From the IMG/VR virus record IMGVR_UViG_3300037165_000022, positions 1 through 44,696 of that record: a stretch of DNA of 44,696 bases, one strand, 5' to 3'. The notes under the pieces are model-generated. The model was given only the letters and a program-made list of their open reading frames with translations, was not told where the DNA came from and did no database searches. Positions within the stretch are counted from its first letter, which is position 1, and each line of letters starts with the position of its first letter. This DNA comes from a virus. The translations under genes were made by a program, and so were the position numbers. Below are positions 10,264-28,129 of this stretch, piece after piece.

Positions 10264-11377
10264 AATATTTTTCGTCTTTAATTTCCGGAATTGGATGTTT
10301 ACGATAGAGTTTTTTCTTGGGTTTAGAAGGTTTTTTGCCACCAAATTGAAGTTCAGGAATAGCCTCTACTAGTTCCCATCGTCCCCAGTTGACTCCTAAC
10401 ACATCTACAATTTGTAAATGGCTACGCATCGCATTTACACGACTATCCTGATATTGGTTAACATATCTCACTCCTTCTTCATTTCTGAATACATATCGTC
10501 CATCCTCAAAATGAGGAGACAACATCATATTTGCACCTCCTGTATCTTGTGTAACCCTGAATTTGTATAGATTACCTCCCTCTATTTCTACAGGTTTAGG
10601 ATTATAACTATGTATAGTAATGCGTCCTCTATATAAAGGATCGCTAGCATTACGTGTAATTCTTCCTTCATTAGCAGGAGGTACACTATCAGTAGTAGGA
10701 GTATCGGGAATAGATTCTGTTAATCTACCACGAAAATTTGAAAGAATATTATTTGCAAGATCTACTGTTAAAGGATTAATAAATCTTTCACCCCTAACCT
10801 GCCCCCATAGTAATTGTGCTTCTTTTCTTATTTCTCTTTCTCTTATAGAACTTCTTAGTAACTCTTCATGTTCATTATTACTTCTATTAACAAAATCCTG
10901 AAAATTGTCTTCCTGATGTTCAGTTAATAGTTGACCAGCAAACTGTTCAGCAGCCTCTCTTATTTCTCTTACATCAGGTTGTTCCTCTGGAGGATTTTGC
11001 GCTACATGAGTAGGAGGAGTCCTATATACTTCTAGATCTTGTCTACGAGCCCACCTTACAGCACCTGTAATTTCAATATCATCACTTACTCTATTTATAG
11101 GAGGTGGAATTGCTTGAATGTCAGTAGGTTCATCAAAAGTATCATCTTCCCCGTCAGCATCCCATATAACACGAGTTGGGCCATCAAGAAGTTCAATTAT
11201 TTGTGCATCATTTACCTCATATAATGTATCGTTTTCATCATCCAATACATCATATATACTTATTCGTCCACTTCCTTGTGGAGCATCAAATGCTACACCT
11301 AGAATTCTGCCCGCGAATTCAAGTTGTCTATCATTTGTATGAAACATTATTATATCATCTGCTTGATAAATTGCCAT
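10238..11377 (-). CDS. hypothetical protein, acidic, possible two-domain
   Basis: In these 379 residues, an N-terminal beta-rich part (about 1-75, with YQADDIIMFH and AGRILGVAFDAP) resembles a small barrel. A long charged, Pro- and Glu-rich helical middle follows (EEQPDVREIREAAEQF ... REREIRKEAQLLWGQ). A C-terminal beta-rich part (from about 255, YRGRITIHSYNPKPVEIEG) is followed by a basic KKPSKPKKKLYRKH tail. I do not recognise it. It starts by TAATG coupling to the CCA-type enzyme gene and overlaps the RlaP gene, so it is co-expressed with nucleotidyltransferases and may be a scaffold or RNA-binding partner. Confidence 0.75.
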   Translation of the reverse strand: MAIYQADDIIMFHTNDRQLEFAGRILGVAFDAPQGSGRISIYDVLDDENDTLYEVNDAQIIELLDGPTRVIWDADGEDDTFDEPTDIQAIPPPINRVSDDIEITGAVRWARRQDLEVYRTPPTHVAQNPPEEQPDVREIREAAEQFAGQLLTEHQEDNFQDFVNRSNNEHEELLRSSIREREIRKEAQLLWGQVRGERFINPLTVDLANNILSNFRGRLTESIPDTPTTDSVPPANEGRITRNASDPLYRGRITIHSYNPKPVEIEGGNLYKFRVTQDTGGANMMLSPHFEDGRYVFRNEEGVRYVNQYQDSRVNAMRSHLQIVDVLGVNWGRWELVEAIPELQFGGKKPSKPKKKLYRKHPIPEIKDEKYYAGKEFIA

Positions 11378-12111
11378 TATTCTTCATTTGTAGGTTTCAG
11401 CCACAACTTCGTGCGTGTGAATATATAATTTTTCAACCCATCATAATATTCAAGCATTTTAAGTGTGTCTAATGTGTTGTGTTTAAAGCATTTATAAAGC
11501 TCCTCACGGATGCGTTCTTCAGATACAACTTTGAACATTTCATCATAGTTGAAATGAACAATCATATCTGAAATTTCTTGGCTTATTACAAAGTCTTTTG
11601 TAATAGCAAATCGTATAGCTCTTAATAAGCGTAAAGGATCATCTGTGAATGTAATTTCACCAGAAATAGGAGTTCGTAGAATTCCTAGTTCAATATCATT
11701 TCGGCCATCAAAAGGATCATAAATATTTCCTTCTTCATCCTTAGCAATTGCATTTATAGTGAAATCTCGCCTTGTAAGATCATCAAGAAGTGTGCCGGGA
11801 ACTAAAATTGGCTCACGAGTACCTTCCTTATAACCTATTTCCTTACGAGCTATTACAAAATCTGCTGTAAGATTTTCCTTTTTATAACCTCTTGGAAATT
11901 GAGCCCTAATTGTATACATTCGAGGAGTTGTAAGAAATATAGTAAATCCTTTGCGATTCAAATATTCAACTAACAGTGCAAATATTTGCTCCATATCTGT
12001 ATGCTCAGGAATTCTATCCATATTAGGTACAGCCACATAATCAATATCCTTAGACTTCTTGCCTAAGAACTCATCTCGGATTTTGCCTCCAACTTCATAG
12101 AACTTAAACAT
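11377..12111 (-). CDS. CCA-adding enzyme / poly(A) polymerase family nucleotidyltransferase
   Basis: The 244 residues show the class II tRNA nucleotidyltransferase head. VGGKIRDEFLGKKSKDIDYV (7-26) has the GG and the metal-binding D22/D24. LTADFVIARK is the third acidic strand, and RRDFTINAIA (114-123) and DDPLRLLRAIRFA (157-169) form the neck that reads ATP and CTP. Cellular enzymes are about 400 residues, so this version lacks most of the body and tail that measure the tRNA. Such enzymes rebuild the CCA end of tRNAs. Beside an RNA ligase and kinase it suggests repair of tRNAs cut by host defence nucleases. The shortened tail could change specificity. Confidence 0.9.
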   Translation of the reverse strand: MFKFYEVGGKIRDEFLGKKSKDIDYVAVPNMDRIPEHTDMEQIFALLVEYLNRKGFTIFLTTPRMYTIRAQFPRGYKKENLTADFVIARKEIGYKEGTREPILVPGTLLDDLTRRDFTINAIAKDEEGNIYDPFDGRNDIELGILRTPISGEITFTDDPLRLLRAIRFAITKDFVISQEISDMIVHFNYDEMFKVVSEERIREELYKCFKHNTLDTLKMLEYYDGLKNYIFTRTKLWLKPTNEE

Positions 12112-12362
12112 AATCGTAAGTTTTTAAGTGATTCAGAAGATTCCATATAGAAATCATCTATAATACTACCTCCATGTTCTGCATCAGGATCAGCTCGGGT
12201 TCTGATTATGTTCAGACTGTCCAGAGCCTGCCAGAATCTCAGATCTGGATTCTCCATCAGGAATTTCTCCAGTAGGAGTAGTATCTGTTTGTTGTAGCTC
12301 CTCCTGTCTATCGCTGCTTTCCTGTTCACTAGATCTGCTATCTGCTGCACGATGGATTCCAT
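12063..12362 (-). CDS. conserved phage small protein, overprinted on its neighbour
   Basis: The 99 residues include KQILLLLEKFLMENPDLRFWQALDSLNII (26-54) and later DDFYMESSESL. This LxxFLxENPDLRFxQAL...DxFYxES pattern recurs in small proteins of many phages, so the frame looks genuine. Its first 173 bases overlap the 12190-12594 gene in another frame, and its last 49 bases overlap the CCA-type gene. Start ATG 12362 is chosen because the helix before the conserved block is well formed; ATG 12257 would cut into the motif. Function is unknown. Confidence 0.7.
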   Translation of the reverse strand: MESIVQQIADLVNRKAAIDRRSYNKQILLLLEKFLMENPDLRFWQALDSLNIIRTRADPDAEHGGSIIDDFYMESSESLKNLRLCLSSMKLEAKSEMSS

Positions 12363-12594
12363 GTTTCATTATTATTAATGATTTATAACCTGCTTGTAAT
12401 ACTTGCTGCAAAAGTTTCATAAAATTGAATACATCTACATCTCCATGAGGATTTCCTAATGGAGTTTCTGTCTTAATTATCCAATATTTTTCATGCTGTT
12501 TTCCTCTCGCAATTTGTGGAGAACATATCCAATCTAGCAAATCTGTTCGATGTGCTAGATTGGTATCCTCTATGTGTAATGTAAAGATGTTCAT
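12190..12594 (-). CDS. hypothetical protein with overprinted, disordered C-terminus
   Basis: In these 134 residues, 1-84 look like a folded domain (FTLHIEDTNLAHRTDLLDWI ... DVDVFNFMKLLQQVLQAGYKSLIIMKHGIHR). From about 85 the chain becomes Ser-, Glu-, Gln- and Asp-rich and apparently disordered. That change coincides with the 173 bases shared with the 12063-12362 gene, suggesting its tail has been shaped by the other reading frame. The ATG shares one base with the upstream stop (TAATG). No family is recognised. Confidence 0.65.
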   Translation of the reverse strand: MNIFTLHIEDTNLAHRTDLLDWICSPQIARGKQHEKYWIIKTETPLGNPHGDVDVFNFMKLLQQVLQAGYKSLIIMKHGIHRAADSRSSEQESSDRQEELQQTDTTPTGEIPDGESRSEILAGSGQSEHNQNPS

Positions 12595-12797
12595 TACATT
12601 AATTCTTTCATTTGTGATTTGAAATATCCTCTCACTCTCTTAGACCATTTCTTCTTTTCAAATCTGCCAGAAGCTTTTCCTTTAGGAGACATACTTGTTA
12701 TAGATCTAGTAATATGAGTTAAAGAACCTTTACAATTTGCTATCCCATTCATGTTCTCATTATAGGCAGCTTTGTGTCTTCTACCTTTATTTTTCAT
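12594..12797 (-). CDS. small very basic protein
   Basis: The 67 residues contain about twenty Lys/Arg, with KNKGRRHK at the start and FEKKKWSKRVRGYFK near the end, and no acidic cluster except at the last residues. It is likely a nucleic-acid-binding or ribosome-associated peptide. The ATG overlaps the stop of the metallophosphoesterase gene by 4 bases and its stop is coupled to the next ATG, so it is a true member of the operon. I do not recognise the family. Confidence 0.6.
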   Translation of the reverse strand: MKNKGRRHKAAYNENMNGIANCKGSLTHITRSITSMSPKGKASGRFEKKKWSKRVRGYFKSQMKELM

Positions 12798-13402
12798 CGC
12801 ACATTTGTATTTTTCCCGTGGCTATCAGGAAATGTAATATCTCTTTTATCAAGAATATTATACACTTCTTCAAATGTGAAGGGTCGGTACTCTCCAAGCA
12901 GTTTATAGGCATTATCAATGCCTACATCCATACTTTTTCCATAAGGAGTACGTTCCAGACTTCCATGAGAATGTCCATAAGTATGCATGAATCCTTTATG
13001 AGATCCAAGCCATACACGAAAAGCATAGTGCATTGCTACCCAAGGAATTCCATTAATAGTACCTTCCCAGTAGTCCTGTACAGAAGTGAAGAACTCGGTA
13101 TATTTATGTATATGCTGATCATGATTTCCACGAATGAAATGAATATTTTTACATCGAATTTGCATCCGATAATTGGGAATGTTTGTATGCCCTCCAAAGG
13201 CAAAGTCTCCATGAAAAAGAATAGTATCATCTTCTTTAACAATATCATTGATATTAGTAGTGATAGTTTTATTCATTTCATGGAGACTGGAAAAGTCTCT
13301 GTAGCCATTCGTCCATTTAGAACTACTAGGGCCTGCTATATTAGCATGTCCTAAATGCCAATCTGAACTAAGGAAGACATTTCCTGTGAGTTTATTTTCC
13401 AT
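12794..13402 (-). CDS. calcineurin-like metallophosphoesterase
   Basis: The 202 residues carry all five blocks of the fold: SDWHLGH (13-19), GDFAFGG (65-71), RGNHD (91-95), AMHYAF (123-128) and YGHSHG (142-147). Together they hold two metal ions. Small phage members of this type hydrolyse phosphodiesters or phosphomonoesters such as 2',3'-cyclic phosphates, and several operate in RNA end-healing. Sitting directly after a polynucleotide-kinase-like gene and near an RNA ligase, it could prepare RNA 3' ends, but a different substrate cannot be excluded. It starts 11 bases inside the kinase gene end. Confidence 0.92.
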   Translation of the reverse strand: MENKLTGNVFLSSDWHLGHANIAGPSSSKWTNGYRDFSSLHEMNKTITTNINDIVKEDDTILFHGDFAFGGHTNIPNYRMQIRCKNIHFIRGNHDQHIHKYTEFFTSVQDYWEGTINGIPWVAMHYAFRVWLGSHKGFMHTYGHSHGSLERTPYGKSMDVGIDNAYKLLGEYRPFTFEEVYNILDKRDITFPDSHGKNTNVR

Positions 13403-13895
13403 AAGTTTTTGAATAGATTTTGTATGGTGAAATATCTATACGAGGATATGCCTTGTAAAATGCTTTTAGGTGATCCAGCGGAATATATTTACCAGTTTTA
13501 ATTTTCCGAATTATATTTCTTATCCACGCTTTCCAGTAGGGTATTTTGAAGAACTCTACGTAGAATTCCATTTTACCTGAATTTATCAAGCTTTGAAAGG
13601 TGGTAAGATAGGCTGCCATATGCTTATTCTGCATGTGACAATTATCGAGAATAATTACTCCTTCTTCTAATGTAGAAGCTGTACTTAGTTGTTTGTAGAA
13701 TTTCTCAGTAACAACTTTTTCATTAACAACACACATTATATAAGGCTGCGGAAATGATTTCCGAATTACGTCCTTACTAATAATTACTACATTAGTTTTA
13801 TGACGTGCTGCAAGGATGGGAAGATTTTCCTCTATCCAAGTGGACTTTCCACTACAGGGTGCTCCTACTAAACAAATAACAATTAATTTGCTCAT
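13392..13895 (-). CDS. polynucleotide-kinase-like P-loop protein
   Basis: The 167 residues begin with a beta strand and Walker A GAPCSGKST (11-19), followed by a hydrophobic strand VVIISKD (36-42) and the central VIILDNCHMQNK. This DN(C/T)H block and the G.P.SGKST loop are typical of the T4 Pnkp-type 5'-kinase domain, which transfers gamma-phosphate from ATP to a 5'-OH of RNA or DNA. The phosphatase half of T4 Pnkp is absent. The separate phosphoesterases at 12794 and 15874 could supply it. An intergenic hairpin lies 12 bases before its ATG. Confidence 0.82.
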   Translation of the reverse strand: MSKLIVICLVGAPCSGKSTWIEENLPILAARHKTNVVIISKDVIRKSFPQPYIMCVVNEKVVTEKFYKQLSTASTLEEGVIILDNCHMQNKHMAAYLTTFQSLINSGKMEFYVEFFKIPYWKAWIRNIIRKIKTGKYIPLDHLKAFYKAYPRIDISPYKIYSKTYGK

Positions 13896-13906
13896 AATAA
13901 AAATTA

Positions 13907-13927
13907 AGGGGAGTATCTCACTCCCCC
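13907..13927 (-). terminator. stem-loop, probable (weak) minus-strand terminator
   Basis: The 7-bp GC-rich stem GGGGAGT/ACTCCCC (13908-13914 with 13920-13926) and 5-base loop are followed on the minus strand by TTAATTTTTATT. It sits in the only non-coding gap (13896-13930) between the 13931-14203 gene and the kinase gene. No promoter is visible for the kinase, so termination is probably partial. Confidence 0.65.
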
Positions 13928-13930
13928 TGT

Positions 13931-14203
13931 TTATAATTCATCCCATTTATATACCACAAATGTCTCTTTCTTAGAGGCAGATATTTTTCGATTCAGAAAC
14001 AAATAGGGAGTTCCTATTTTATAATAAAGCTTCAAGAATTCTTTAGATTCCTTGTTGCCATCCACTATTTTCAGAAGTTTCTGTCGTAGTATTACCTGAT
14101 CTTCATAAGACAAACTTCCGGGTATCTTAATTACTGCAAATCCTGGCTTGTAAATAATTTTAGCCTGAGTTGCATCGTCCACAGTTACGATTAGAATTTT
14201 CAT
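13931..14203 (-). CDS. hypothetical protein
   Basis: The 90-residue small alpha/beta protein has no cysteines: MKILIVTVDDATQAKII, then IPGSLSYEDQVILRQKLLKI and a C-terminal TFVVYKWDEL. No family is recognised. The ATG is 3 bases after the RNA ligase stop and the stop is followed by a hairpin, so it ends the upstream transcript. Its association with the ligase suggests a supporting role in the same process, without direct evidence. Confidence 0.7.
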   Translation of the reverse strand: MKILIVTVDDATQAKIIYKPGFAVIKIPGSLSYEDQVILRQKLLKIVDGNKESKEFLKLYYKIGTPYLFLNRKISASKKETFVVYKWDEL

Positions 14204-14206
14204 GTA

Positions 14207-15544
14207 TTATCCTCCTTGTGATTCTTGAGTTTCAATATCCACTGTACCGCTGTCCAGTTCTCGTGTTTCCCTTTCTTTAAATCGGAAGGATTTTAGCTTA
14301 TAAGCCTCATATTCCAATCCTTCTATTCGTAATACAAATCCTTCAGCAGGTACTTTAGCTTTACACATATCACAATCCTTTTCCATATTGAAGCTGGTAA
14401 GTAATTTAGTTAATAACTCTCCATACCATTCTTCTTCACTTGCAGTTCCAACTGGAAGCCAATCACCTGCTTTAACATAATAAAATTCAGGAACTGCTTT
14501 AAGCATATTAGCTTTGCACCAATCCTGTACCTGCTTTGCACTGAATTCGAATACTTTACCCCCAAAGGTAGTGAATGTAATACGATAGATGTAGATGCCA
14601 TAGCAGGTATTAAACTGCCCTTTAGGATCATATCCATAGTCATATCCTCCCTGAATAGGACGTCCGCTTCTTGTAAATCCTACTACTTCTCCATAAATAG
14701 TCATACCATCCAGAAGATAAGGAGCAAGTTCCTTAGAAACATCAGCCCAGATGTCTTCGCCATAGAAATGATTGTAATTACGACCAAGATCATCATTCTT
14801 AATCACTTTACGGCTACTCCAGATATTATCGTAATGAGTATCATTGATTGGCACACCAAGAGTTTTGAGAAGTCTTGGAAACCATCCTATCTTCTTCTTA
14901 CATAATATCTTAGAGGTAATGAAAGATGAACCGTGTAGCTTATTTGTGATAGAAATAAAGCTGTCTGGCTTAACTTTGAAGATATTCTTGCCAAGAGCTT
15001 TTGTATCCTCATGAAAGCGGAACTGTCCGTCTATAATTCGTGATACTTTCTTAGCAATCTTTTGATTACCATTTTTACTGCCGGGTGTTCCCGGAGTATA
15101 TGTAATTTTCGGGATATATTTCTCGCAGATTTTAACACCATTAATCTCGTCAAATGTGGAACCTTCAGGGAGAGCAGCAACATCAACTGCTTCAGCTGCA
15201 AAGAGTATGCTTGTAGCTGGTAGAAACATTCCCTCGGATTTGTGTCCCCGAAACTTAACACAACGAATTCTTCCATTATCTTCGAAATATCCCTTTTCGT
15301 TAATATTGCAGTTTTTGGTGTTGTCACGGTAAAGGTTATTAGTATACAAGAACTCATCAGAGAGTCTTGTTTCAATCGGGAAGAAGATTCCTCTATCTCC
15401 CACTTTCGTATCTTTGCCTACTACTACTAGGTTTCCAAAGATAAGTGTATGCACTACATTATCACATTTCTCAAGAGGTATTAAGTTCTTGATAGTCACA
15501 ATAGTAGCTGCATAATTCTCGTTAATTGGAGTTTTCAGTTTCAT
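14207..15544 (-). CDS. RNA ligase, DRB0094/Rnl5-like
   Basis: The 445 residues have two parts. The N-terminal region (about 1-145) resembles the OB-like module found before the catalytic domain in DRB0094-type ligases (VGKDTKVGDRGIFFPIETRLS, FRGHKSEGMFLP). The nucleotidyltransferase domain has motif I TNKLHGSSF with lysine K202 as the adenylated residue, motif III-like MTIYGEVVGF, motif IV AEGFVLRIEG and motif V YKLKSFRF. These enzymes seal 3'-OH/5'-phosphate RNA breaks using ATP. Two Cys pairs around residue 390-395 (KDCDMCKAKV) are an oddity, perhaps a metal site. It lies in an operon with kinase, phosphatases, RlaP and CCA-type enzymes. Confidence 0.92.
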   Translation of the reverse strand: MKLKTPINENYAATIVTIKNLIPLEKCDNVVHTLIFGNLVVVGKDTKVGDRGIFFPIETRLSDEFLYTNNLYRDNTKNCNINEKGYFEDNGRIRCVKFRGHKSEGMFLPATSILFAAEAVDVAALPEGSTFDEINGVKICEKYIPKITYTPGTPGSKNGNQKIAKKVSRIIDGQFRFHEDTKALGKNIFKVKPDSFISITNKLHGSSFITSKILCKKKIGWFPRLLKTLGVPINDTHYDNIWSSRKVIKNDDLGRNYNHFYGEDIWADVSKELAPYLLDGMTIYGEVVGFTRSGRPIQGGYDYGYDPKGQFNTCYGIYIYRITFTTFGGKVFEFSAKQVQDWCKANMLKAVPEFYYVKAGDWLPVGTASEEEWYGELLTKLLTSFNMEKDCDMCKAKVPAEGFVLRIEGLEYEAYKLKSFRFKERETRELDSGTVDIETQESQGG

Positions 15545-17015: not shown

Positions 17016-17209
17016 GTTGGTTTTTTTGATTTCCACAATTTGATATACCGCCTCTTTATTGAACCATCACTCTGATATTCTGTATACCAAAGGATGAGCA
17101 TTTTTTCTTTCTTTATATATTCAAATTTCATCTCAAATACTGCATAGAAGAAAGTCGCGTAAAATACTACTAGAGTTAAGACTATCAAAATTGTGTCTAA
17201 ATACTTCAT
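17006..17209 (-). CDS. small single-pass membrane protein
   Basis: In these 67 residues, 6-27 (TILIVLTLVVFYATFFYAVFEM) form a clear transmembrane segment. A basic cytoplasmic-type tail ending KLWKSKKPTKP follows. The ATG overlaps the stop of the nucleotide-hydrolase fusion gene by 4 bases. Small inner-membrane phage proteins in early operons may act in superinfection exclusion or host takeover; nothing here distinguishes these. It ends with TAG inside a hairpin. Confidence 0.65.
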   Translation of the reverse strand: MKYLDTILIVLTLVVFYATFFYAVFEMKFEYIKKEKMLILWYTEYQSDGSIKRRYIKLWKSKKPTKP

Positions 17210-18015
17210 AAAACGTTTTTTATCGTTTCTTTTGTAATTCGTTTATATCCCACCTCAATTCGTTGATTATGGGATGAATCAAAAAGATAACATAAGATGC
17301 CATTATTATTTAGATGTATAAAAGTTGCTATTTTATCATCAATAAACCGTTCTATTTGCATTTCCTTAATTACAGGTAGTTTATTACTTGCAAAAATAAG
17401 AGGAGCAATAGGATAGTGGTTTATTTCAAATAACCATCTATTTGTTACATCACCTAGATTTGATGGGCGTGATGTAATATAAGCCGTAGGCTCAAATGGT
17501 AGATCTTCAGGGGAGAGGATGGTTTTGAGATTGAGAAAGAAGTCAGGATCATTTTGCAGGGCTTTATACCTGTCTACAAATACCGAATCAAATTCCCAAG
17601 CATTTGGTCTTTGAAGATTGTACCTTTCACAATATGCTCCCATGAAGTCTGCTAATACATCATCAATATCTATGCCAATTCGTTTTGGTTGTAGATATAA
17701 TGTTGGTCTGTCATCTCCTTGAGGAAATATTTTGTAATATTCTGTCAGAAAGGCAGCATTACACATTATATGAGCAGAATGAAGTAGTCCCGTCTCTGGA
17801 TCATAGTCCTCTCCTGATTTGTGAGCATTGAGATGCCTTTCTAAAGATCCTATGACTCTACTCCAATTCATTCCTTTTCTCCAATTATTTTCTGCATATT
17901 TTCTAGCTCCAAAAGTAAAAACTTTGGCTAATTCTTGATGTGCATATGCGGGGACTAAATCAAATCTTACCTTTTCTGTATCAAATCTTACTGCTTCTCC
18001 TTTATTTTCATTCAC
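17206..18015 (-). CDS. fused dATP/dGTP pyrophosphohydrolase and 5'(3')-deoxyribonucleotidase
   Basis: The 269 residues form two enzymes in one chain. Residues about 8-95 have the dATP/dGTP-type pyrophosphohydrolase pattern: RFDTEKVRFDLVP, VFTFGARKYAENNWRKGM, LERHLNAHKSGEDYDPETGL and LHSAHIMCNAAFL. Residues 111-269 start a HAD-type nucleotidase (KRIGIDIDDVLADFMGAY with the D116-x-D118 nucleophile pair, TAYITSRP as motif II, ERFIDDKI as motif IV). Together they could take a purine dNTP to dNMP and then to the nucleoside. The start is GTG 18015; no in-frame ATG precedes it, and an endonuclease VII remnant lies directly upstream and may have replaced the original leader. Confidence 0.85.
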   Translation of the reverse strand: MNENKGEAVRFDTEKVRFDLVPAYAHQELAKVFTFGARKYAENNWRKGMNWSRVIGSLERHLNAHKSGEDYDPETGLLHSAHIMCNAAFLTEYYKIFPQGDDRPTLYLQPKRIGIDIDDVLADFMGAYCERYNLQRPNAWEFDSVFVDRYKALQNDPDFFLNLKTILSPEDLPFEPTAYITSRPSNLGDVTNRWLFEINHYPIAPLIFASNKLPVIKEMQIERFIDDKIATFIHLNNNGILCYLFDSSHNQRIEVGYKRITKETIKNVL

Positions 18016-18784: not shown

Positions 18785-19875
18785 TTGTTAAAAATCTTTA
18801 GCTTTATCTTACCTGTCTCATAAAGCTCTTTGGGTCTATCCCATACAGAATTAGCAACATGCCATGCTATACGCTCAAGAATGGATCTCCAACCTTCTAC
18901 ATTCTTTTCCTCAGATCCATTTTCAGCAATATCCAGATCATCCCAATCATATTCATAAATGAAAGGAATTTTGTATTTCCGATCAATTACAATATTAGTA
19001 GGAAGTAAGAATTTATAATGAGCATATTTTCCTTCTTCATAGGTTTTCAGCCATTCTTTCAGAATGAACATATAGAAACTCACCTGAATAATATATCCAA
19101 AATCACGAGCTATTTTTGCAAAGAACTCAGATGTATGTGTATATTTTAAATCAGGTACTTCTACAGTTTCATTTGTATGATCGAATCTGATAATATCCAA
19201 AGCTGCTTTAAGAGGAATCATAAGATTATCCTGATAAATATAGTCTACGAATATCTCCTGCTGAAATAATAGTGTTTCTCCTTCTTGTGGAACAAAATAC
19301 TTGCGGGTGTCCTTTCCATTTCTTAAGGCTTCTACCATTTCAATTGCATCTGCATTATCAGCTGCTGTAATAACAGAACGGCCATTACACTCGGAAAGCA
19401 TTCTGAAATAGAGGTGTCCGTCTTCAACTACTGTGTCGATTATCCTACTTCTGCTCCAAGTCTTTCCACCATATTCTATCTCCTTAGCATACTTCATAAT
19501 AGTATCTTGCCATTCATATAAATCCATAATATTAGGAATATATAGAGGCTCTGGCAGATTACCTTTCTCATTCAGAAGCGTTTTAGTTTCCACAATCTCT
19601 TTAGCCTCCTTGTATACATTATCAACAATCTTCTTCACCTTATCTCCGGGTATAGTTACCTCATATTCAGGCAAATAGAATCGTTCATTAAGTAGTTCAG
19701 GAGCAAAAGCAATTGTATCTACTAAGCTTCCAAATGTAAATTTACTATCATCAGAATCATCATCTTCTTTCTGATTGATATAGAGTTCACGGAACTCTTG
19801 TAACGTTTTGGTTTTAAACGTTTTAATGGCCGATTGCGAAATTGCAAAAACTTTTTGGTATTCAGGTCTTTGCAT
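18781..19875 (-). CDS. PD-(D/E)XK nuclease, exonuclease VIII/Cas4-like
   Basis: The 364 residues from ATG 19875, which overlaps the HNH stop as TGATG, include SQSAIKTF and LYINQ. FTFGSLVDTIAF (about 46-57) is typical of phage RecE/Cas4-type PD-(D/E)XK nucleases. The catalytic core is LKAALDIIRF...VEVPDLKYT, where D227 and D242-x-K244 would bind metal. A helix with YIIQVSFYMFILKEW follows, corresponding to the conserved Q-x-x-x-Y motif. It probably resects or trims DNA ends for annealing-based recombination, together with the Sak4-like ATPase and RecA. A TTG at 19914 is an unlikely longer start. Confidence 0.85.
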   Translation of the reverse strand: MQRPEYQKVFAISQSAIKTFKTKTLQEFRELYINQKEDDDSDDSKFTFGSLVDTIAFAPELLNERFYLPEYEVTIPGDKVKKIVDNVYKEAKEIVETKTLLNEKGNLPEPLYIPNIMDLYEWQDTIMKYAKEIEYGGKTWSRSRIIDTVVEDGHLYFRMLSECNGRSVITAADNADAIEMVEALRNGKDTRKYFVPQEGETLLFQQEIFVDYIYQDNLMIPLKAALDIIRFDHTNETVEVPDLKYTHTSEFFAKIARDFGYIIQVSFYMFILKEWLKTYEEGKYAHYKFLLPTNIVIDRKYKIPFIYEYDWDDLDIAENGSEEKNVEGWRSILERIAWHVANSVWDRPKELYETGKIKLKIFNK

Positions 19876-20246
19876 CAGCTTGTTTTTTGTTCTTTTGTAA
19901 TTATTAAATGGCACGGCTTACATAAAACACGTAATCCATTCTTTTCGCAGAATAACCGCTCTACGAATCCTTTTAAATCATCTCCAGAGCGTAGTGAGCC
20001 TGCTGGAATTAAATGGTCTACTTCTATGTTCTTATCAGGAAACCATCCTCTACAAATAGCACATTGATATTCATATTTCAGGCGTTTATTATTGCTCTGA
20101 TTATCTCTACGAACTGCTAGTTTTGTTTCAGATATTGGCTTCCACCACCTAGACTTCTGCCTAAGTGCGGAACGTATCATAGACCAGAATGCACTTTCTG
20201 TAAGTGTACCACTTCCTCTTGTCTTAGGAACCTTTATTTTAGCCAT
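19875..20246 (-). CDS. HNH endonuclease
   Basis: The 123 residues hold a standard zinc-bound HNH unit: CAIC (62-65), IEVDHLIPAG (75-84) with D77/H78, and CKPCH (109-113). A basic N-terminal region SMIRSALRQKSRWWKP precedes it. Free-standing enzymes of this build are common in phages as homing-type or DNA-processing nickases and nucleases. It begins 4 bases after a large inverted repeat (20251-20289) and is coupled to the PD-(D/E)XK gene, so it may be either a mobile intruder or a working member of the recombination set. Confidence 0.9.
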   Translation of the reverse strand: MAKIKVPKTRGSGTLTESAFWSMIRSALRQKSRWWKPISETKLAVRRDNQSNNKRLKYEYQCAICRGWFPDKNIEVDHLIPAGSLRSGDDLKGFVERLFCEKNGLRVLCKPCHLIITKEQKTS

Positions 20247-20300: not shown

Positions 20301-21815
20301 CTAAAATAAATGTGTTACATTCTCGAAAGTGAATGTAAAGTCCTTATCTCCAGTGAGTTCCTTCTTACTCTCTAAATCTCCTTTTTTCTTATCGTTCAGG
20401 AAATACTCTTTCCTGTTGGCGATATAGGCTTTTAGATAGTTAGAGAGAAATATGGCCTCTTTGGTTTTGAAATGTGTGGCATAATAGTCCATAATAGTAT
20501 CCAGACTGATAGGATCACTAGTGGATAATATCTGTATTGGATATTTCTCTGCATACTTTAGAATAGCATTACAGATGAATAGCCAATTTATCATTTTCTG
20601 TCCATTAGTTGTGGCAGAATGGAGCCGAAACTCCATTGTCTTCCTTTTACTGAAGAACATATTCATGAAATTAAGCCAATAGTAACGTCCAGCTCTCTCC
20701 CATTTAGCTGTTCTGCTATGATTATGATTACGCCGGTTAAACTGATCATCTGGCTCATTTCCATCATTGAGGAATTTATACATACGATAATAAGCATCAT
20801 TTACATAATTTTCATATTCCTCTTTGTTAGAATCAGTTTTTAGTAAACCAACACCTAGTTTTCTTACCTTCTGGCAATAATCCTTCTTTTTGAAGTTTTT
20901 CCATTCCGTCTTATATCCGGGGAACATGGTAAAAATCTCCTCCTGAATTCGTATAGCCAGAGCCCATAGAGCGATTAAGAATAGTCGATTATCTGGGAGT
21001 GTACCAAAGTGAATATGAAATGAACATTTAATATCTATTAGAGTCCGCTTACTCAGCTCCTCTGCTAGATATTTTAGGTTTACTAAACCCCTTGGGCCAT
21101 GCATTGGTACAGTAACAAACTCTGCATTATCTATTGAACCATCCCGACATATAACAACACCTGTTCGGTTTTGAATATGTTCTGGAAGATAGCCCATAGA
21201 AGTCTCGGTTTCACAGCCGAAACTTGTATTTCCCAGAAGCTTTCCATATCGCATAGCACTAGAGCTTATCTTAACAGGATATTTATCGAAGGCATCAATC
21301 TTCTGCTTGAACTCTTCTGCGTTATCTTCGATATTATATCCCTTGTCTTGATAAACCTTCTTGCTTGTAATTCTGTTAAGCTGAGAAATTTGAGATGCCG
21401 ATAGCTCTCTTTTAAGGAGCCATAAACCATCAGACAGATTTTCAATATATCCTCCCTTCACGAGAACATCTTCACTAAGACTCTTTACGGAGCCATAATT
21501 ATTAATATTTACAAGAACGTTAAAATATTTATTTTCTGTAAAATAGCCGAAGTCAGGCACTCCATCCTTCTTAAATCCTACAACACCATATATAAGAGGA
21601 GTATTTTTTACGATAACATGTATACCCTTCTCGTGATCAAAAGTGATAAGTTTTGATGTGTAAGCATACCATTTTCCTTCAATAAGGAAACATTGCTCAT
21701 TTTCCACATAATACTTATCCTTCATCTTACGACAATTCTTACGATATTCAGTCTCTCCTGTAATGGTTTTTATAGTTTTAAGCTTCAACTTAGGATTGTC
21801 ATTGTAACGTATCAT
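20301..21815 (-). CDS. amidoligase (GCS-fold COOH-NH2 ligase, Amidoligase_2-like)
   Basis: In these 504 residues, the N-terminal 180 form a beta-rich unknown part (GKWYAYTSKLITFDHEKGIH and so on). The C-terminal part carries the amidoligase signature of the glutamate-cysteine-ligase/glutamine-synthetase fold: TSFGCETETS (197-206, metal-binding Glu pair), CRDGSIDNAEFVTVP (223-237), CSFHIHFG (264-271) and later KRKTMEFRLHSATTN. These enzymes use ATP to join a carboxylate and an amine, making peptide-like amide bonds. The gene overlaps the amidotransferase by 4 bases and is the 3'-terminal gene of an island with ATP-grasp, a second ligase and a GGCT. The substrate is unknown. Confidence 0.88.
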   Translation of the reverse strand: MIRYNDNPKLKLKTIKTITGETEYRKNCRKMKDKYYVENEQCFLIEGKWYAYTSKLITFDHEKGIHVIVKNTPLIYGVVGFKKDGVPDFGYFTENKYFNVLVNINNYGSVKSLSEDVLVKGGYIENLSDGLWLLKRELSASQISQLNRITSKKVYQDKGYNIEDNAEEFKQKIDAFDKYPVKISSSAMRYGKLLGNTSFGCETETSMGYLPEHIQNRTGVVICRDGSIDNAEFVTVPMHGPRGLVNLKYLAEELSKRTLIDIKCSFHIHFGTLPDNRLFLIALWALAIRIQEEIFTMFPGYKTEWKNFKKKDYCQKVRKLGVGLLKTDSNKEEYENYVNDAYYRMYKFLNDGNEPDDQFNRRNHNHSRTAKWERAGRYYWLNFMNMFFSKRKTMEFRLHSATTNGQKMINWLFICNAILKYAEKYPIQILSTSDPISLDTIMDYYATHFKTKEAIFLSNYLKAYIANRKEYFLNDKKKGDLESKKELTGDKDFTFTFENVTHLF

Positions 21816-24316
21816 ACATTTACGCGTTTACCTACTACTTCTTTTACATAGTATTGGAGTTCCTCCTCCTTATGTTTAATAGTTAATTCGTGTAAGTCTC
21901 TTAATGCAGGATCTACGATCCGATATATAAGATTAGCTGCTCCTTGAGCAAAGTCGTTGTCTTCATAAGCTTGCAGTTCGTCTGCACAATCACGACAATC
22001 GCTAAGTCTATCTACGATGTCCTGAAAAGCATAATCTCTTTCAGTATTAGGATCATCAAGGATGTCTCTTTCTGCATCATCATCAACATAAAAAGGGCCT
22101 TCAGGATCTTCATCCGTGGGAACAGCAGCCTGTTCTCTTGCTACCATCATATCAATAACGGGAGTTTCACCTTCATCCATTCCATCCTGAGAATTAGTTC
22201 CAAATTTCTCCTTCAGATAAATATCACCTTCAGCAGGTGGTACAAGTCCTAGGTTCTTGGATACTACTCTCAAGTGAGCTGCGTTGATTTCTTGGGTGGT
22301 TTTACTTGCTGCCTCATTCATTTGAACGATGCGTGCCTCGACATCAACTACATCTTCCTTTGGTTTGGGAATGAATTCACATACTTCTATATTACCGGAG
22401 ACTTCTTCATCATAGATACTACCATTAGGATTATCGTTAGCTATTACAAGATAGTCAACAACTTCCTTGTAGTTTTTCTCATCCCAATTATCCATAATAG
22501 TTGCCCCATTCTCTATACATATCTGTAGCATCATATTGAGTTGAACATCTACCTGATCGTCATAAATATTCTCAGGATATATACCCATTTCATTCATCAT
22601 AACGTCTACAATATAATAGCGAATTGCATCCATCTCAAGTTTAGTGAGTTCATCACGAACTTGTGTAATACTATCCCAATGCTGATAAAAATGGGTGACA
22701 TCCCATTCTTTTTCCTGTTTAGGAGTTTCAGATTTTTCTATTGGAAAAGGAAGTTCATCCTGTTTCGTAGTAGTTGCCAAACCTTTGAGCAAATTTGTTA
22801 AGCCTATTGCTGGACTTTGAACATCCTTAGATACTTCCTCAGCACGAGAATTACGCAGAGATTCTATATCTATACACGTCTCAGGAGCACCATGTCCTTT
22901 CTGAGAAGCAATAGCATGTAGTAAACCATCCTTAATAAGATAGTTTCTATCACTGAATTTAGGCGTAAAACTTGTATTTCCACACATATTTCCGTTCTGA
23001 AACCAGCGATATTTGTAATAATCTGCACAATTCTTACACATAGATTCAATATCTGCCTTAGAATTACAGATTGGATAATCCGCATACTTAGAAAGATATG
23101 TTACACGATTCCAGAAGATATTCTTCAGATCTCCATCAGCTAATGCTACTTTATAAGCAGCCTGACTCTTCATTAAAACACCTTCAAAGAAGAACCAGTT
23201 ATGATGTTGTGCATCTTTGTGTATTCCCACTACACCTTTTTTATTGATATAATAGGAACCATGTGCAAGCACTATCTCACCAGCATTACTATCTACTATC
23301 CAATACCGTCCAAGATGGAAGAAAACACCTTTCTTCTTATCATATCTATCAACTCGTTTTGGCATTGTTTCATGCCATATGATAGAAGAAGTAGTTTTCT
23401 CAAACTTAGAATTATAAGTAGACCCTATATGAGAATTAGTCCCACCTATCGTAGGGGGAATAACCGCTGGTGTATGCAAATTGCTCTGCGTCGAAGAAGA
23501 AGCCAGCGTCCCTATTGGCTTTGGGTAGTTTGCTGTCGGACTCCATCCATAAGTATTTAAACTTACTCCAATATTAACAACATCTCTACTAATGCGTACT
23601 TTAGATTTGGTCATTACACCATTTGTAATCTTATGTACGATATTACCTTCAAGTTGTTTAACTTTATCGCCACTGCTATCAGAAATAGCTAGTAGAGATT
23701 TCTGAAGACTAGAAAAGTATATTCCTTCTTCAGATTGAAGATAGAATAACGGTCTTTCCTCTTCTTCAGGGCTATTCGTAACGCGTTGAGATACACCACG
23801 ATATGCATAAATGGCATTTGGTTCATCTTGTTTAGTCATTAACAAAGCAGCAAAACCTTCATATTCATTAAGAATACCAAAACCTTCCTGATTAATAAGC
23901 TCTGCAAGTCCTAAACTATCCACATGGATTCCTGTATGGTTGATTTTGTACTTATTGCATAATGTCCAAATGTTACGAATAACACCATTATGAGCAAGAA
24001 CAAAATTATCATTCACACGAAATGGATGTGCATTTTCTATTGTATGAGAGCCATGAGTAGCTGCTCGGGTATGTCCGATCATTATAAAATTTCCAGTATC
24101 CATTGGATCAGGAAATTCTCTTGCTGCAATAAAATCGTCAAATAGTTTCTCTTTATCGACGCCTTTGATCAGATGATTATCTATAAATACTCCGCAGGAG
24201 TGCTTTCCCCGCTCGATATTATATAATCCAAGAATCTTAAACTTGGCAATAGCAGCCTTTGTCATCGCTCGATCCATCACTTTAGGGTTTAACGAAGCAC
24301 CGAAGATTCCGCACAT
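21812..24316 (-). CDS. class II glutamine amidotransferase-like protein with long C-terminal extension
   Basis: This 834-residue protein starts MCGIFG, so Cys2 becomes the N-terminal nucleophile after Met removal. GHTRAATHGS (81-90), NAHPF (95-99), LAHNGVI (107-113) and D133 complete a class II (Ntn) glutaminase site like GlmS, PurF and AsnB. The domain ends near residue 240. The next 590 residues match no sugar isomerase, PRTase or synthetase domain that I recognise; they contain CKNCADYYKYRW (about 430), a long acidic stretch and a helical end. The glutaminase would release ammonia or transfer the amide N to an acceptor, here probably for the neighbouring ATP-dependent ligases. Confidence 0.88.
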   Translation of the reverse strand: MCGIFGASLNPKVMDRAMTKAAIAKFKILGLYNIERGKHSCGVFIDNHLIKGVDKEKLFDDFIAAREFPDPMDTGNFIMIGHTRAATHGSHTIENAHPFRVNDNFVLAHNGVIRNIWTLCNKYKINHTGIHVDSLGLAELINQEGFGILNEYEGFAALLMTKQDEPNAIYAYRGVSQRVTNSPEEEERPLFYLQSEEGIYFSSLQKSLLAISDSSGDKVKQLEGNIVHKITNGVMTKSKVRISRDVVNIGVSLNTYGWSPTANYPKPIGTLASSSTQSNLHTPAVIPPTIGGTNSHIGSTYNSKFEKTTSSIIWHETMPKRVDRYDKKKGVFFHLGRYWIVDSNAGEIVLAHGSYYINKKGVVGIHKDAQHHNWFFFEGVLMKSQAAYKVALADGDLKNIFWNRVTYLSKYADYPICNSKADIESMCKNCADYYKYRWFQNGNMCGNTSFTPKFSDRNYLIKDGLLHAIASQKGHGAPETCIDIESLRNSRAEEVSKDVQSPAIGLTNLLKGLATTTKQDELPFPIEKSETPKQEKEWDVTHFYQHWDSITQVRDELTKLEMDAIRYYIVDVMMNEMGIYPENIYDDQVDVQLNMMLQICIENGATIMDNWDEKNYKEVVDYLVIANDNPNGSIYDEEVSGNIEVCEFIPKPKEDVVDVEARIVQMNEAASKTTQEINAAHLRVVSKNLGLVPPAEGDIYLKEKFGTNSQDGMDEGETPVIDMMVAREQAAVPTDEDPEGPFYVDDDAERDILDDPNTERDYAFQDIVDRLSDCRDCADELQAYEDNDFAQGAANLIYRIVDPALRDLHELTIKHKEEELQYYVKEVVGKRVNV

Positions 24317-24337
24317 AATTGTATGGTATTTAATGAG

Positions 24338-25279
24338 TTATACTGTTTCTGTCTTTCCTGGATTAGGTAAGTCCAATAACTGAAATTGCTTCCAAGCAAA
24401 GCTTTGAGCATTTTCAAATTTGGTAAAATCCCAATGATCCCTACGTTTATCGGAGGCATTCAGCCAATCAAAATACTTTGCATATTGATCACTGATAAAG
24501 TCAGAGCTGTTTAAAGTTGGACTTGTATTCACTTCGAGAACAAATCCTTCCTTACCTAAGAGTAGTACATCTACTCCTGCAAAATCGAGTCCCAGAGTTT
24601 TTACAGCTTTGAGGGCCTGAAAACATATGGAGAAGATATAATCCTTCTGAGCTATGCGCGTGAAGGCTTCTCCCGTAACCGCACGATTCCAAGCGATGTT
24701 GTCAGATCCTCTTGCTTTCTCCATAACCCCAAGAACCTTCCCGTGAGCGCAATGAACACGAAATTCTCTTTCTTTGTTAATGAACTCGGAATAATACCAT
24801 CCGTTTTTCTCGTTGGCATTATAGTGCTTGGTAAAATCATCCACATTCTTGAGTGTGACGAAGTTTTTACCTTTTGCATGAGTGGATGGTCTTGCTATGA
24901 TAGGAAATTGTGTAGATTTAACATCTGTAGGTGTCACTAACTGAGGAGTCCTTACCTTGTTCTTGATGAAGAGCTGCCGGGATAGTTTCTTATTGGTAGC
25001 ATTTGCAATGCCTTCAGACTTGTTATAGATAATAGAACTCTTATCTGTGTCTGCCTCAATTCGATTACCCCACCGGATATATTTGCCACCTGCCAAGTTA
25101 AGTTCATTGATTGGTTTTTTAACAAATTTATCAACTGTTGCACCTTCATAAACACGCAAATATGCATGTTTAGTCTTAGGAGGAATTCTCCTAACTGTGA
25201 GAACGCTCTTAGTTTTCATGAGCGCAAACACCTTTTTCATTGATGGTCTACCATCTCTTCCAACGAGTATACTGATCAT
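24338..25279 (-). CDS. ATP-grasp ligase, RimK-like
   Basis: The 313 residues from ATG 25279 overlap the upstream stop as ATGA. The ATP-grasp order is visible: ATNKKLSRQLF, PIIARPSTHAKGKNF (the first nucleotide-binding loop, with Arg where many have Lys), YSEFINKEREFRVHCAHGKV (about 163-182), GVMEKAR, GLDFAGVDVLL (D237) and FVLEVNTSPTLNSS (EVN 249-251), which bind Mg-ATP. Such enzymes activate a carboxylate as acyl phosphate and attach an amine, for example RimK adding Glu to protein tails. It sits between the amidotransferase and a GCS-type ligase, implying a multi-step conjugation. Confidence 0.9.
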   Translation of the reverse strand: MISILVGRDGRPSMKKVFALMKTKSVLTVRRIPPKTKHAYLRVYEGATVDKFVKKPINELNLAGGKYIRWGNRIEADTDKSSIIYNKSEGIANATNKKLSRQLFIKNKVRTPQLVTPTDVKSTQFPIIARPSTHAKGKNFVTLKNVDDFTKHYNANEKNGWYYSEFINKEREFRVHCAHGKVLGVMEKARGSDNIAWNRAVTGEAFTRIAQKDYIFSICFQALKAVKTLGLDFAGVDVLLLGKEGFVLEVNTSPTLNSSDFISDQYAKYFDWLNASDKRRDHWDFTKFENAQSFAWKQFQLLDLPNPGKTETV

Positions 25280-26133
25280 GCCGCGAGTTTTACACCAAAG
25301 TAAGAACACATAGTATTAGCCAAAGCCATATTATTTGTATTGATAGCGGCTTGTACAGCTGTACCTTCTTCTTCACTTATTTGGTGATTATTATTAACAA
25401 ATTCAATTGCTGCGAGTGTATTATTATATACCCAGTCTACAAGTGTAGTACTGTTTACATAATAATTCGATATAGTGCGATATTCTGCACCATATTCCTT
25501 GAATCGGAATGCTCCTGCTTTTCCATAGAGTGTTTTCCGCTCATTATCAGGTTCCTGAATAATAGATGGAAGCCCTATGAAAATATCCATTGCTCTAATA
25601 AGAGCCATAGATATATTTGCATTAGGTTTATCATAACCTACATGAATATGGCCACCACAACTCCTTAGATCAGAAATTGCTTCAGGCTTAGGATTCATAT
25701 CTCCCAGAAGCCATGCATTGAAATCAGGATCACATCCAAAAAGCTTTGCACTCTCTGTTTGAAGAAACCGATTATCAAGCCGGGCTGATGGTTGAGCTAA
25801 TACCTTTAAACTATTAGGAATGAAACCTTCAATCCATCCAAGAGCAAATGCAATGTTTTCTCTGAACTGCTTCACTTCTTTTGCAGGAGGAATACAGAAC
25901 TCAGCCATTACATTATCCAAAGAAGTAGCAAAGAATGGTTCGCTATCCAGAATTTTATAAGGATTATCTTTAGTTCCCATTATAATTCCTTCAGCACTCA
26001 CCACTGCTTCAGATGCTCTATCCTGAAGAAACACTTCAATATCAGCTCCTATTGTAGGATTATTTATGAGTGGGAGCTTTGGCTTTCCTTGCGATACTCC
26101 TAATCGCTTTTGTTGCTGTTTTTTTGGTGCCAC
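25276..26133 (-). CDS. phage COOH-NH2 ligase (second amidoligase, PF14395-like)
   Basis: In these 285 residues, after a basic N-terminal 25 the motifs of the phage-type COOH-NH2 ligases appear: TIGADIEVFLQ (27-37), GTKDNPYKI (53-61), LDNVMAEFCIPPA (72-84), RSCGGHIHVGYD (157-168) and FKEYGAEYRTISNYYV (about 213-228). The paired acids and GGHIHVG correspond to the metal site of the GCS fold. It would form an amide bond at ATP cost, on a substrate different from the 20301 enzyme, whose motifs differ. Its start overlaps the unknown 26060-27172 gene by 74 bases; no other in-frame ATG precedes the conserved region. Confidence 0.87.
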   Translation of the reverse strand: MAPKKQQQKRLGVSQGKPKLPLINNPTIGADIEVFLQDRASEAVVSAEGIIMGTKDNPYKILDSEPFFATSLDNVMAEFCIPPAKEVKQFRENIAFALGWIEGFIPNSLKVLAQPSARLDNRFLQTESAKLFGCDPDFNAWLLGDMNPKPEAISDLRSCGGHIHVGYDKPNANISMALIRAMDIFIGLPSIIQEPDNERKTLYGKAGAFRFKEYGAEYRTISNYYVNSTTLVDWVYNNTLAAIEFVNNNHQISEEEGTAVQAAINTNNMALANTMCSYFGVKLAA

Positions 26134-27172
26134 TTTCTTTATTTTTGGTTTTTGAAGGGTAATACAGGCGGTCCAGATAGGCTATAAGTCCTTTAATATC
26201 TCTTGCTTTGAAAAGTTCGAAACATTTATACGACTCATGCTTTGTAGTAAAAACAAGACTCTTTCCATTTTTGTCAAGAAGCTGAGGATGATTATTGTTT
26301 CTTGCAGACAGCATATTATTCATAGAACCATCTAGAGGAAGACATGTAAACCATGTTTTCTTGAACTTAGCTGCACTTACTCCAATATCAGGATGCAGAT
26401 TCTCGGTGCGATCGTCAGGATAGTCAGGATAGTCAGAATAGGCTAGACCATATCCACTATACCATGGAGACATTGCAATGCAATACATGAATGCTCTGAA
26501 CGGTTCAAGTCCATAGTCATCTATCAAAGAGAATATTAGTCTTGGGATATTATAATATTCAAGCTTTTCTGTTGAAGCTGCAAGATCATGGTTTTGAGTT
26601 CTAGTGGAATTAATGAGATAGCGCAGATATATCCAGTGCAGATATGGAACATTTCTATTTGTTCCTATTGGCCACCTAGGAACACACACCCAGAAATAGT
26701 TATTTTCCTTCCTACTATATCTGTCCTCATTTACTCCAAAACTAGATATGCTAGGCTTCTTTCCAGTCCATGTTTTAAATGTATCATCTGAAGCAGGTTG
26801 CTCTCCAAAGTAAAGATATCCAAATCCTATTTTCAGATCATTGAGATATTTTATCCATCTTACTAAATCATCCTCCACAAGTCCTACTGCTGCTAATTCA
26901 AGGCGAGATATAGGAAATAAATACCATCTCTCGGGATTCTTTGTAAATGAGCAACATCCTGCTCCTGTAGTAATTGTAATATTACCTGTAATACGACTAT
27001 CCTTCCATGGATCACCATAGGTTGTTACTATATCAGGAGTAGTGAATGCAGCAATTCCTTCCTTTTTCAGTCTCTTAATAACTGTTTCTTTGGTAAGTGT
27101 ACTGAGAAAGTTAACAGATTGGTGACTAAGAATCTGCACTTTCGTGTCATTCTTAAAAATCTTTGGAAACAT
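26060..27172 (-). CDS. unknown protein of the amidoligase island
   Basis: The 370 residues form an apparently globular alpha/beta protein: DIVTTYGDPWKDSRITGNIT, GAGCCSFTKNPERWYLFPIS (near 71-90), WIYLRYLINSTRTQNHDLAAS and a Tyr/Asp-rich loop LAYSDYPDYPDDR. The tail is Lys/Arg-rich (SIARKAKAPTHK). The Gly-Ala-Gly-Cys-Cys-Ser segment could hold a nucleophile, but no family is recognised. It is flanked by a GGCT gene (12 bases upstream) and a COOH-NH2 ligase (74-base overlap), so it is very likely part of the same pathway. Confidence 0.78.
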   Translation of the reverse strand: MFPKIFKNDTKVQILSHQSVNFLSTLTKETVIKRLKKEGIAAFTTPDIVTTYGDPWKDSRITGNITITTGAGCCSFTKNPERWYLFPISRLELAAVGLVEDDLVRWIKYLNDLKIGFGYLYFGEQPASDDTFKTWTGKKPSISSFGVNEDRYSRKENNYFWVCVPRWPIGTNRNVPYLHWIYLRYLINSTRTQNHDLAASTEKLEYYNIPRLIFSLIDDYGLEPFRAFMYCIAMSPWYSGYGLAYSDYPDYPDDRTENLHPDIGVSAAKFKKTWFTCLPLDGSMNNMLSARNNNHPQLLDKNGKSLVFTTKHESYKCFELFKARDIKGLIAYLDRLYYPSKTKNKESGTKKTATKAIRSIARKAKAPTHK

Positions 27173-27183
27173 TTCCTTTAGTT

Positions 27184-27588
27184 TTAATCAATAATTTTAT
27201 TAATATATTTGGCCCAGTCTCCAGACTCTACCTGCTTGTTTTTCAGGTAGCTATCATTGAGGATATACATGTTTGTCTTTCCCCATTGAGTGTCGATAAC
27301 AGTTTTTTGATAGAAGCTTGGATAGCCTTCCAACCAATCAAGGCGTTGCTCTACATCTTTAGAGTTAACGCGAAACACTTCGATTGTTATAGATTGCTTT
27401 CCATTTAATATAACTCCCGGAAAACCTCCAAGGCTCACCATATGAAATTTAGGAGCTGTAATTTCTGTACCGAGATAAGTACAATGTTCGTTATTCAGTA
27501 AGCGGTTATTACCGAAGCCGACCCTCAAGGTCCCGTAAACCGCATACAAAACACCATTTTTAGGGTCTTGCGATTGATTCTTTTCCAT
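27184..27588 (-). CDS. gamma-glutamylcyclotransferase-fold protein (AIG2-like) 1
   Basis: The 134 residues have AVYGTLRVGFGNNRLL (16-31), FHMVSLGGFPGVI (48-60), ITIEVFRV (67-74, E70 the likely acid/base) and QRLDWLEGYP (81-90). These are the standard blocks of the GGCT/AIG2 barrel. Such enzymes cleave gamma-glutamyl amides with formation of pyroglutamate, or related gamma-glutamylamines. In the amidoligase island it could trim or mature a glutamyl-containing product. It starts 29 bases inside the end of the HNH gene and is probably the first gene of the island. Confidence 0.87.
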   Translation of the reverse strand: MEKNQSQDPKNGVLYAVYGTLRVGFGNNRLLNNEHCTYLGTEITAPKFHMVSLGGFPGVILNGKQSITIEVFRVNSKDVEQRLDWLEGYPSFYQKTVIDTQWGKTNMYILNDSYLKNKQVESGDWAKYINKIID

Positions 27589-28129
27589 TTAAAATTAAAT
27601 TTTTAGACATTAAATAAACTTCTTTATCTGTAAAATCAGATTTTGCAATATTATAAATCCAACATACAAGTCTACAGTTTTCCATTATATATCCTTTTGT
27701 TGAATCTATCCTATCTATTGATGGATTGAAAGGATTAGAATGATATTTATCTTTATTATATTTTAATAAAGTTAGACTACATCCTGTAACTTCACAAACC
27801 ATTTTATTAAGTTTTTCAGAAATCCATTCTTTTGTTAAATCAAACTCCCAATCTTTTACTTTAGCTCTATTCTTAGAAGTAGACCATAATTTAGAAACAA
27901 ATCCATTAAATGATTGAAGATAACTAGTTCTAAAATTCCTTTCGTAGTCTTTGTTCTGTTCTTTTAGTCTATAGTTTCTTGCCCATTTATTATAGTTTTC
28001 TTTACTTCTAGCTTTATAATAAAGATTCATACAGTCCTTACAAGTGTAGCTATATCCTCTCTTAAGACTAGAATTCTTCCAAAAATAATCCTTATCCTTC
28101 TCTAAATCACATTTTTTGCAGTATAACAT
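27560..28129 (-). CDS. HNH homing-type endonuclease
   Basis: The 189 residues start with a zinc ribbon (CKKC 4-7, CKDC 30-33) and a basic linker. The HNH-type core is PFNPSIDRIDSTKGYIMENCRLVCWIYNIAKSDF, the S-DRID...GY...N...C...N pattern of phage homing nucleases. The coding sequence is noticeably more AT-rich than its neighbours and has its own consensus promoter. Both suggest recent insertion just upstream of the GGCT gene, with which it overlaps by 29 bases. It would nick or cut a specific DNA site and spread the gene. Confidence 0.87.
   Translation of the reverse strand: MLYCKKCDLEKDKDYFWKNSSLKRGYSYTCKDCMNLYYKARSKENYNKWARNYRLKEQNKDYERNFRTSYLQSFNGFVSKLWSTSKNRAKVKDWEFDLTKEWISEKLNKMVCEVTGCSLTLLKYNKDKYHSNPFNPSIDRIDSTKGYIMENCRLVCWIYNIAKSDFTDKEVYLMSKNLILNGKESIARP

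Follow-up and report, generated by a model that had tools for sequence, protein, structure and literature searches.

The gene set studied here has been published from RIO-1-like podoviruses as a seven-gene "peptidoglycan modification cassette", for which a role in superinfection exclusion was proposed (PMC5498523). In the accessible text of that paper, the cassette is assigned to ORFs 40-47 of PSA-HP1 and also reported from phiEco32, Salmonella 7-11, PA11, tf, MR299-2, LUZ24, PaP3 and CW02. Another paper, as far as its available text goes, repeats the wall-modification idea and suggests in addition that the wall is prepared for lysis (PMC11945000), and the available text of two others cites the same idea from Iyer 2009 (PMC10580990, PMC11318856). 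No enzyme tests or wall-change experiments are reported for the cassette in the accessible text of these accounts. RefSeq annotations already label cassette genes in Cellulophaga phage phi14:2 and the crAss-like phage cr108_1, and our search found no literature naming amidoligases together with crAss-like phages.

We analyzed a 44,696-base virus contig from IMG/VR, referred to here in its whole length as the window. Its neighbor genes and their order resemble those of phi14:2 and cr108_1, and its DNA polymerase is only ~32% identical to that of any named phage. The window genome is that of a bacterial virus related to crAss-like phages. The original prediction had called an island of six amide-bond-forming or associated genes, and all six ORFs were recovered on the minus strand at the positions first noted, overlapping or narrowly spaced and transcribed in the order G-U-C-R-N-A (Table 1). 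The overlaps are 4 bp for A/N, 4 bp for R/C and 74 bp for C/U, with remaining gaps of 21 and 11 bp. As in the published set, the cassette sits among early/replication genes, its surroundings including DNA polymerase, primase, Sak4, UDG, an exonuclease-like protein and HNH. No DNA-level relative of the island was found among phages, and the defense-system models of PADLOC gave no match. HNH-type nucleases, which lie outside the pathway, were observed on both flanks of the cassette; relatives of the downstream one occur near the cassette in loci L006, L007, L014 and L018-L022, and the flanking nucleases may aid transfer of the cassette between phages.

Table 1 Features of the amidoligase cassette, its borders and examples of membrane leaders in related loci.
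Feature	Position	Strand	Length or start	Matches
Virus contig IMGVR_UViG_3300037165_000022 (window)		 	44,696 bases	
HNH endonuclease, downstream border	19875-20246	-		phrog_1985 1.3e-24
A, amidoligase	20301-21815	-	504 aa	PF12224 5e-8; phrog_2443 1e-22
N, class II glutamine amidotransferase	21812-24316	-	834 aa	GATase_6 2.1e-9; PHROGs 2e-15
R, RimK-type ATP-grasp ligase	24338-25279	-	313 aa from ATG at 25279	RimK 1.6e-7; TIGR00768 5e-15; phrog_2599 2e-21
C, COOH-NH2 ligase	25276-26133	-	285 aa, GTG start	PF14395 3.5e-13; phrog_3815 1.4e-62
U, no known family	26060-27172	-	370 aa	
G, gamma-glutamyl cyclotransferase-like (GGCT/GGACT)	27184-27588	-	134 aa	PF06094 (GGACT) 2.1e-16; PHROGs 1e-26; PDB ytfP 1xhs 2.8e-8
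HNH/endonuclease VII-like protein, upstream border	27560-28129	-		phrog_3322 1.7e-30
N leader, locus L004	10050-10145			
N leader, locus L007	7453-7545			
N leader, locus L017	12110-12202			

Elsewhere in the window, an RNA-repair-like set at 9133-15544 comprises an RlaP-type nucleotidyltransferase, a tRNA nucleotidyltransferase, an RNA ligase, an AAA_33 kinase-like protein and a calcineurin-like phosphoesterase. The gene at 17206-18015 fuses a dATP/dGTP diphosphohydrolase N-terminal domain to a C-terminal part weakly similar to the 5'-3' deoxyribonucleotidase family. The contig ends in a region (43046-44647) coding for nicotinamide phosphoribosyltransferase (NAMPT), possibly part of an NAD+ rebuilding pathway directed against NAD-depleting defenses.

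The window holds the components of the published set, namely two amidoligases, an ATP-grasp ligase, a glutamine amidotransferase and GGCT on one strand, and shares with the RIO-1-like cassette their arrangement as a single block in the early replication region. In contrast to those podoviruses, the window genome is crAss-like/phi14:2-like, its gene order is different, U is additional, peptidase C26 is missing, and N is an 834-aa protein with a long acidic tail. The PaP3/LUZ24 cassette (NC_004466 orf42-48; UFV-P2 ORF21-29, PMC3890496) likewise holds C, A, N, R and G in one block; however, its order is C-x-A-N-R-G, its small unknown genes are others, U is lacking and N has 517 aa. The Crassvirales relatives phi14:2 (NC_021806 g037-g041) and cr108_1 (NC_055878) carry the same enzymes, with primase, Sak4 and UDG as neighbors, but in both R precedes C and there is no U. 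The N protein of phi14:2 has a membrane-helix leader, unlike that of the window, and cr108_1 has C26 and two further unknown proteins, and no GGCT annotated nearby. The closest named relatives of C (44%) and A (38%) were found in Leptolyngbya phage Lbo-JY46 (PP438436), which has GGCT, C, R, N and A in a single block; there, however, C adjoins a gene of the peptidase C26 type, R has 536 aa and U is absent. The window cassette is a variant of an already described set, in which the order G-U-C-R-N-A in a crAss-like genome, gene U and the lack of C26 are new. The original prediction had been unaware that the set was already described (PMC5498523, PMC11945000); its families, joint pathway and ammonia supply were supported.

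Curated profiles above gathering cut-offs, together with conserved catalytic residues, upheld the five family assignments, and PHROGs agreed with Pfam, both recovering the amidoligase and ATP-grasp domains. All residues more than 90% conserved within each family (55-83 relatives per family) were kept by the window copies. A scored 33.6 bits against a PF12224 cut-off of 22, and its motif residues E202xE204, D225GS, E232, H267xH269 and E395xR397 were 93-100% conserved (n = 78). The PF12224 match and a succession of ExE, E, HxH and ExR motifs like that of C suggest that A has a GCS fold. Global homology between A and C was not obtained, as hhalign joined only the HxHxG motif over 17 columns. In N, residues C2, R84, H109-N110-G111 and D133 were invariant in 83 sequences, giving the class II amidotransferase signature of a Cys nucleophile after Met removal, an Arg, an Asn-Gly oxyanion hole and an Asp for glutamine. 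The N-terminal Cys2 glutaminase of N (residues ~1-215), whose relatives in the PDB are the GlmS glutaminase domain, is followed by a variable linker, a poorly conserved C-terminal module and a long acidic tail; in the window clade the protein has ~830-870 aa and a variable, acidic C-terminus. No sugar-isomerase or synthetase domain was recognized in N, and a synthase domain considered for its variable C-terminal part found no profile match.

R scored 31.5 bits against a RimK cut-off of 21, and did not reach the equivalog cut-off for any named enzyme. The ORF as listed opens with a GTG at 25309; the product from the in-frame ATG given in Table 1 matches relatives of 312-316 aa. Its Mg/ATP residues D247, E259 and N261 (numbering of the 323-aa ORF) are conserved. 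The true start of C may lie some 9-16 codons inside the GTG-start ORF; C keeps the conserved residues E33, E78, H162, H164, E217 and R219. In G, the Y18-G19-x-L21 loop and the catalytic E87 are present, and both YGxL and E87 were found in 100% of 55 members.

An AlphaFold2 model of C (61 sequences) had a pLDDT of 94. A Foldseek search with the model matched plant GCL at 1.4e-5 and also YbdK; VIA superposed it on YbdK with a Z of 14.5 over 223 residues at 3.4 Å. YbdK, plant GCL and GshF (PDB 1r8g, 2gwc and 3ln7) share the fold of the C model with Z values of 13.8-14.5 over 223-237 residues, although sequence identity is only about 10%. Further structural matches include glutamine synthetases, the Pup ligase PafA and Dop. 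The glutamine-synthetase/GCS fold was thus confirmed for C at the level of the model.

With A and C as queries, 91 loci were retrieved from IMG/VR, and co-occurrence was counted in the 41 distinct ones in which C is flanked by 7 kb or more on each side. Both A and N were present in all 41, R in 34, peptidase C26 in 33 and GGCT in 21; homologues were grouped rather than single. Because just 315 of 50,697 phage records (0.6%) contain a relative of C (PF14395), this constant company of A and N represents linkage far beyond chance. The main gene orders were CANR(G), (G)(R)PCNA and GUCRNA. Lineages keep the same members in different orders, which is good evidence of a shared pathway, and the single joint pathway originally proposed is backed by linkage across phage loci. 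Of 71 distinct cassettes, 64 have A and N immediately side by side, with ends that overlap by a few bases. This adjacency is the best evidence that N feeds ammonia to A and, with the intact N-terminal Cys, bears out the predicted supply of ammonia from glutamine. Some cassettes lack part of the full series of steps, since R is missing from seven and G from 20 of the 41 loci. Peptidase C26, a class I amidotransferase-like component, is also optional given its frequency; it is a majority component that the available text of the published accounts does not state to be obligatory. An HMM built from 57 loci found no C26 in the window, and C26 was lost or never present in the window clade.

Outside phages, C gave no match in plasmids, and a pattern-based, non-exhaustive scan of 84,980 prokaryote genomes found it in four contigs, all from MAGs (L097, L098, L099 and L100, binned as bacterial and archaeal). 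Three of the four carry further cassette genes, and with their MAG origin this suggests that the four contigs are probably phage. Hosts among the matches listed were proteobacteria, Bacteroidota, a planctomycete and a cyanobacterium, all diderm. One phage with C is Bas86, which infects E. coli K-12 and is of the phiEco32 type.

Gene U had no profile match in Pfam, PHROGs, NCBIfam, PADLOC or PDB. Weak matches to NCBIfam DarH (0.044) and Pfam DUF4872 (0.083) both fell on its Lys-rich C-terminal tail and were discarded. Its model was of low confidence (mean pLDDT 63; best VIA Z 4.2), and Foldseek with this model found nothing below 0.001 in PDB or viral models. Homologues were found in four IMG/VR phages, always between G and C, with remote homologues in the same slot of loci L008 and L016; U was present in 3 of the 41 distinct loci. 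Within the clade, orthologues of U are 32-40% identical, compared with 60-67% for A, 61-65% for C, 55-73% for G, 44-60% for N and 73-75% for R. By sequence comparison, U is a fast-evolving, clade-specific gene in a fixed slot between GGCT and C and not a core component; perhaps it is an accessory of the window clade that serves in substrate recognition or as an acceptor. We also considered U as a substitute for C26, which was ruled out because L008 and L016 hold both remote U homologues and C26. In the close relative L020, R is 28.8% identical to the window R, whereas its neighbor genes are 44-62% identical, suggesting replacement by another version of the ATP-grasp gene in the same slot between C and N.

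Our preferred reading, held tentatively with a probability of about 0.45, is that the island is a phage-borne, non-ribosomal amide- or peptide-forming cassette whose likeliest target is a host-envelope peptide (a wall precursor), made at an early stage of infection so as to keep competing phages out or ready the wall for lysis. We infer the substrates, the order of steps and the target. N would hydrolyze glutamine and pass ammonia to its neighbor A, which would convert a carboxylate to an amide, so that the two would form a glutamine-dependent amide synthetase. C, as a GCS-fold ligase, would join a carboxylate and an amine in a gamma-type amide, and the RimK-like R would add an amino acid to extend or cap the product. 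Cleavage of gamma-glutamyl units by G, joined by C26 in most relatives, would edit or deprotect the product. The GCS fold of C, GGCT and C26 were together counted in favor of gamma-linked chemistry. The near-restriction of the cassette to phages and the diderm hosts among the matches listed were also counted in favor of the envelope reading. The cell wall as target is the published guess, and no cassette member matched a known wall enzyme; nothing in the analysis points to DNA or to a virion protein tail. Location among DNA replication genes fits any early function and was counted against the wall reading specifically. For a biofilm-trained LUZ24-like phage, the available text of a published study (PMC11450229) describes two evolved lines, each with missense mutations in both A and N; this suggests selection on both genes and could also mean that they are dispensable.

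GGCT and C26 are families known for activity on free gamma-glutamyl compounds. This, together with the parallel between C plus R and GshF, which combines GCS and ATP-grasp and is with YbdK among the nearest folds of C, would suit a cassette that makes a free small molecule. Such a glutathione-like gamma-glutamyl peptide or amide, built by a GCS-type step of C, an ATP-grasp step of R and amidation by A and N, and turned over by GGCT and C26, could be an anti-defense compound or an amine neutralizer. However, the fold reveals no substrate, and a soluble product is less easily reconciled with the membrane leaders found on many of the N proteins; we consider this explanation rather unlikely.

Those leaders were found in 15 distinct N proteins elsewhere in the family, including that of phi14:2, as an N-terminal membrane helix before the catalytic Cys, usually followed by basic residues, with no Met preceding the Cys. 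Besides the examples in Table 1, they occur in L008, L009, L012, L014, L028, L032, L040, L044, L049, L059 and L072. Class II amidotransferases require a free N-terminal Cys, and leader-bearing N proteins should therefore need cleavage for activation. The window N begins with MCG and has no membrane leader, but two of its closest relatives have one. A leader of this kind would place N at the inner membrane, at least initially, and would suit a membrane-linked precursor. In an extended and unlikely version of the envelope reading, the inner membrane would be the site of action: in some members of the family, N would be a tethered precursor that is cut to free its Cys and feeds a glutamine-dependent amidoligase marking lipid-linked wall precursors, and in the crAss-like clade U would be a recognition or acceptor subunit tuning the mark to the host.

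It is a little less probable still that R and the ligases tag host or phage proteins with a peptide or amide. RimK profiles are the best matches of R, PafA and Dop appear in the fold list of C, and the Lys-rich tail of U could serve as an acceptor. However, R is dispensed with in the seven cassettes noted above, the GS/GCS fold is common to many small-molecule ligases, and U, apart from a few remote relatives, is found in a single clade. An auxiliary role in nitrogen or amino-acid metabolism, by which the cassette would help the host assimilate ammonia, was proposed for Phage-ZRK32. According to the accessible text of that study, growth was better with phage plus ammonium or nitrate and these genes were proposed as the cause, but the claim is based on addition of phage and not on gene removal (PMC10945688). 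Moreover, the C family is essentially missing from the bacterial chromosomes and plasmids searched, unlike a borrowed metabolic gene, and we regard this explanation as improbable. We regard DNA base hypermodification, in which an amino acid or an amide would be attached to a nucleotide or base, as highly improbable. The position of the cassette amid replication genes, adjoining uracil-DNA glycosylase in many relatives, speaks for it, but a scan of the larger window proteins recognized no gene for a base hydroxymethylase, a thymidylate-synthase-like protein or a base kinase.

The cassette spans many unrelated phages, including LUZ24, phiEco32, crAss-like phages and a cyanophage, and is near-absent from the bacterial chromosomes searched. 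Phages with the cassette infect the easily handled laboratory hosts E. coli and P. aeruginosa PAO1, so the question of its product is open to direct testing, and the linkage data suggest a first assay of N together with A for glutamine-dependent amide synthetase activity. If the wall hypothesis is true, the cassette would give phages a chemical means of rewriting host peptidoglycan.
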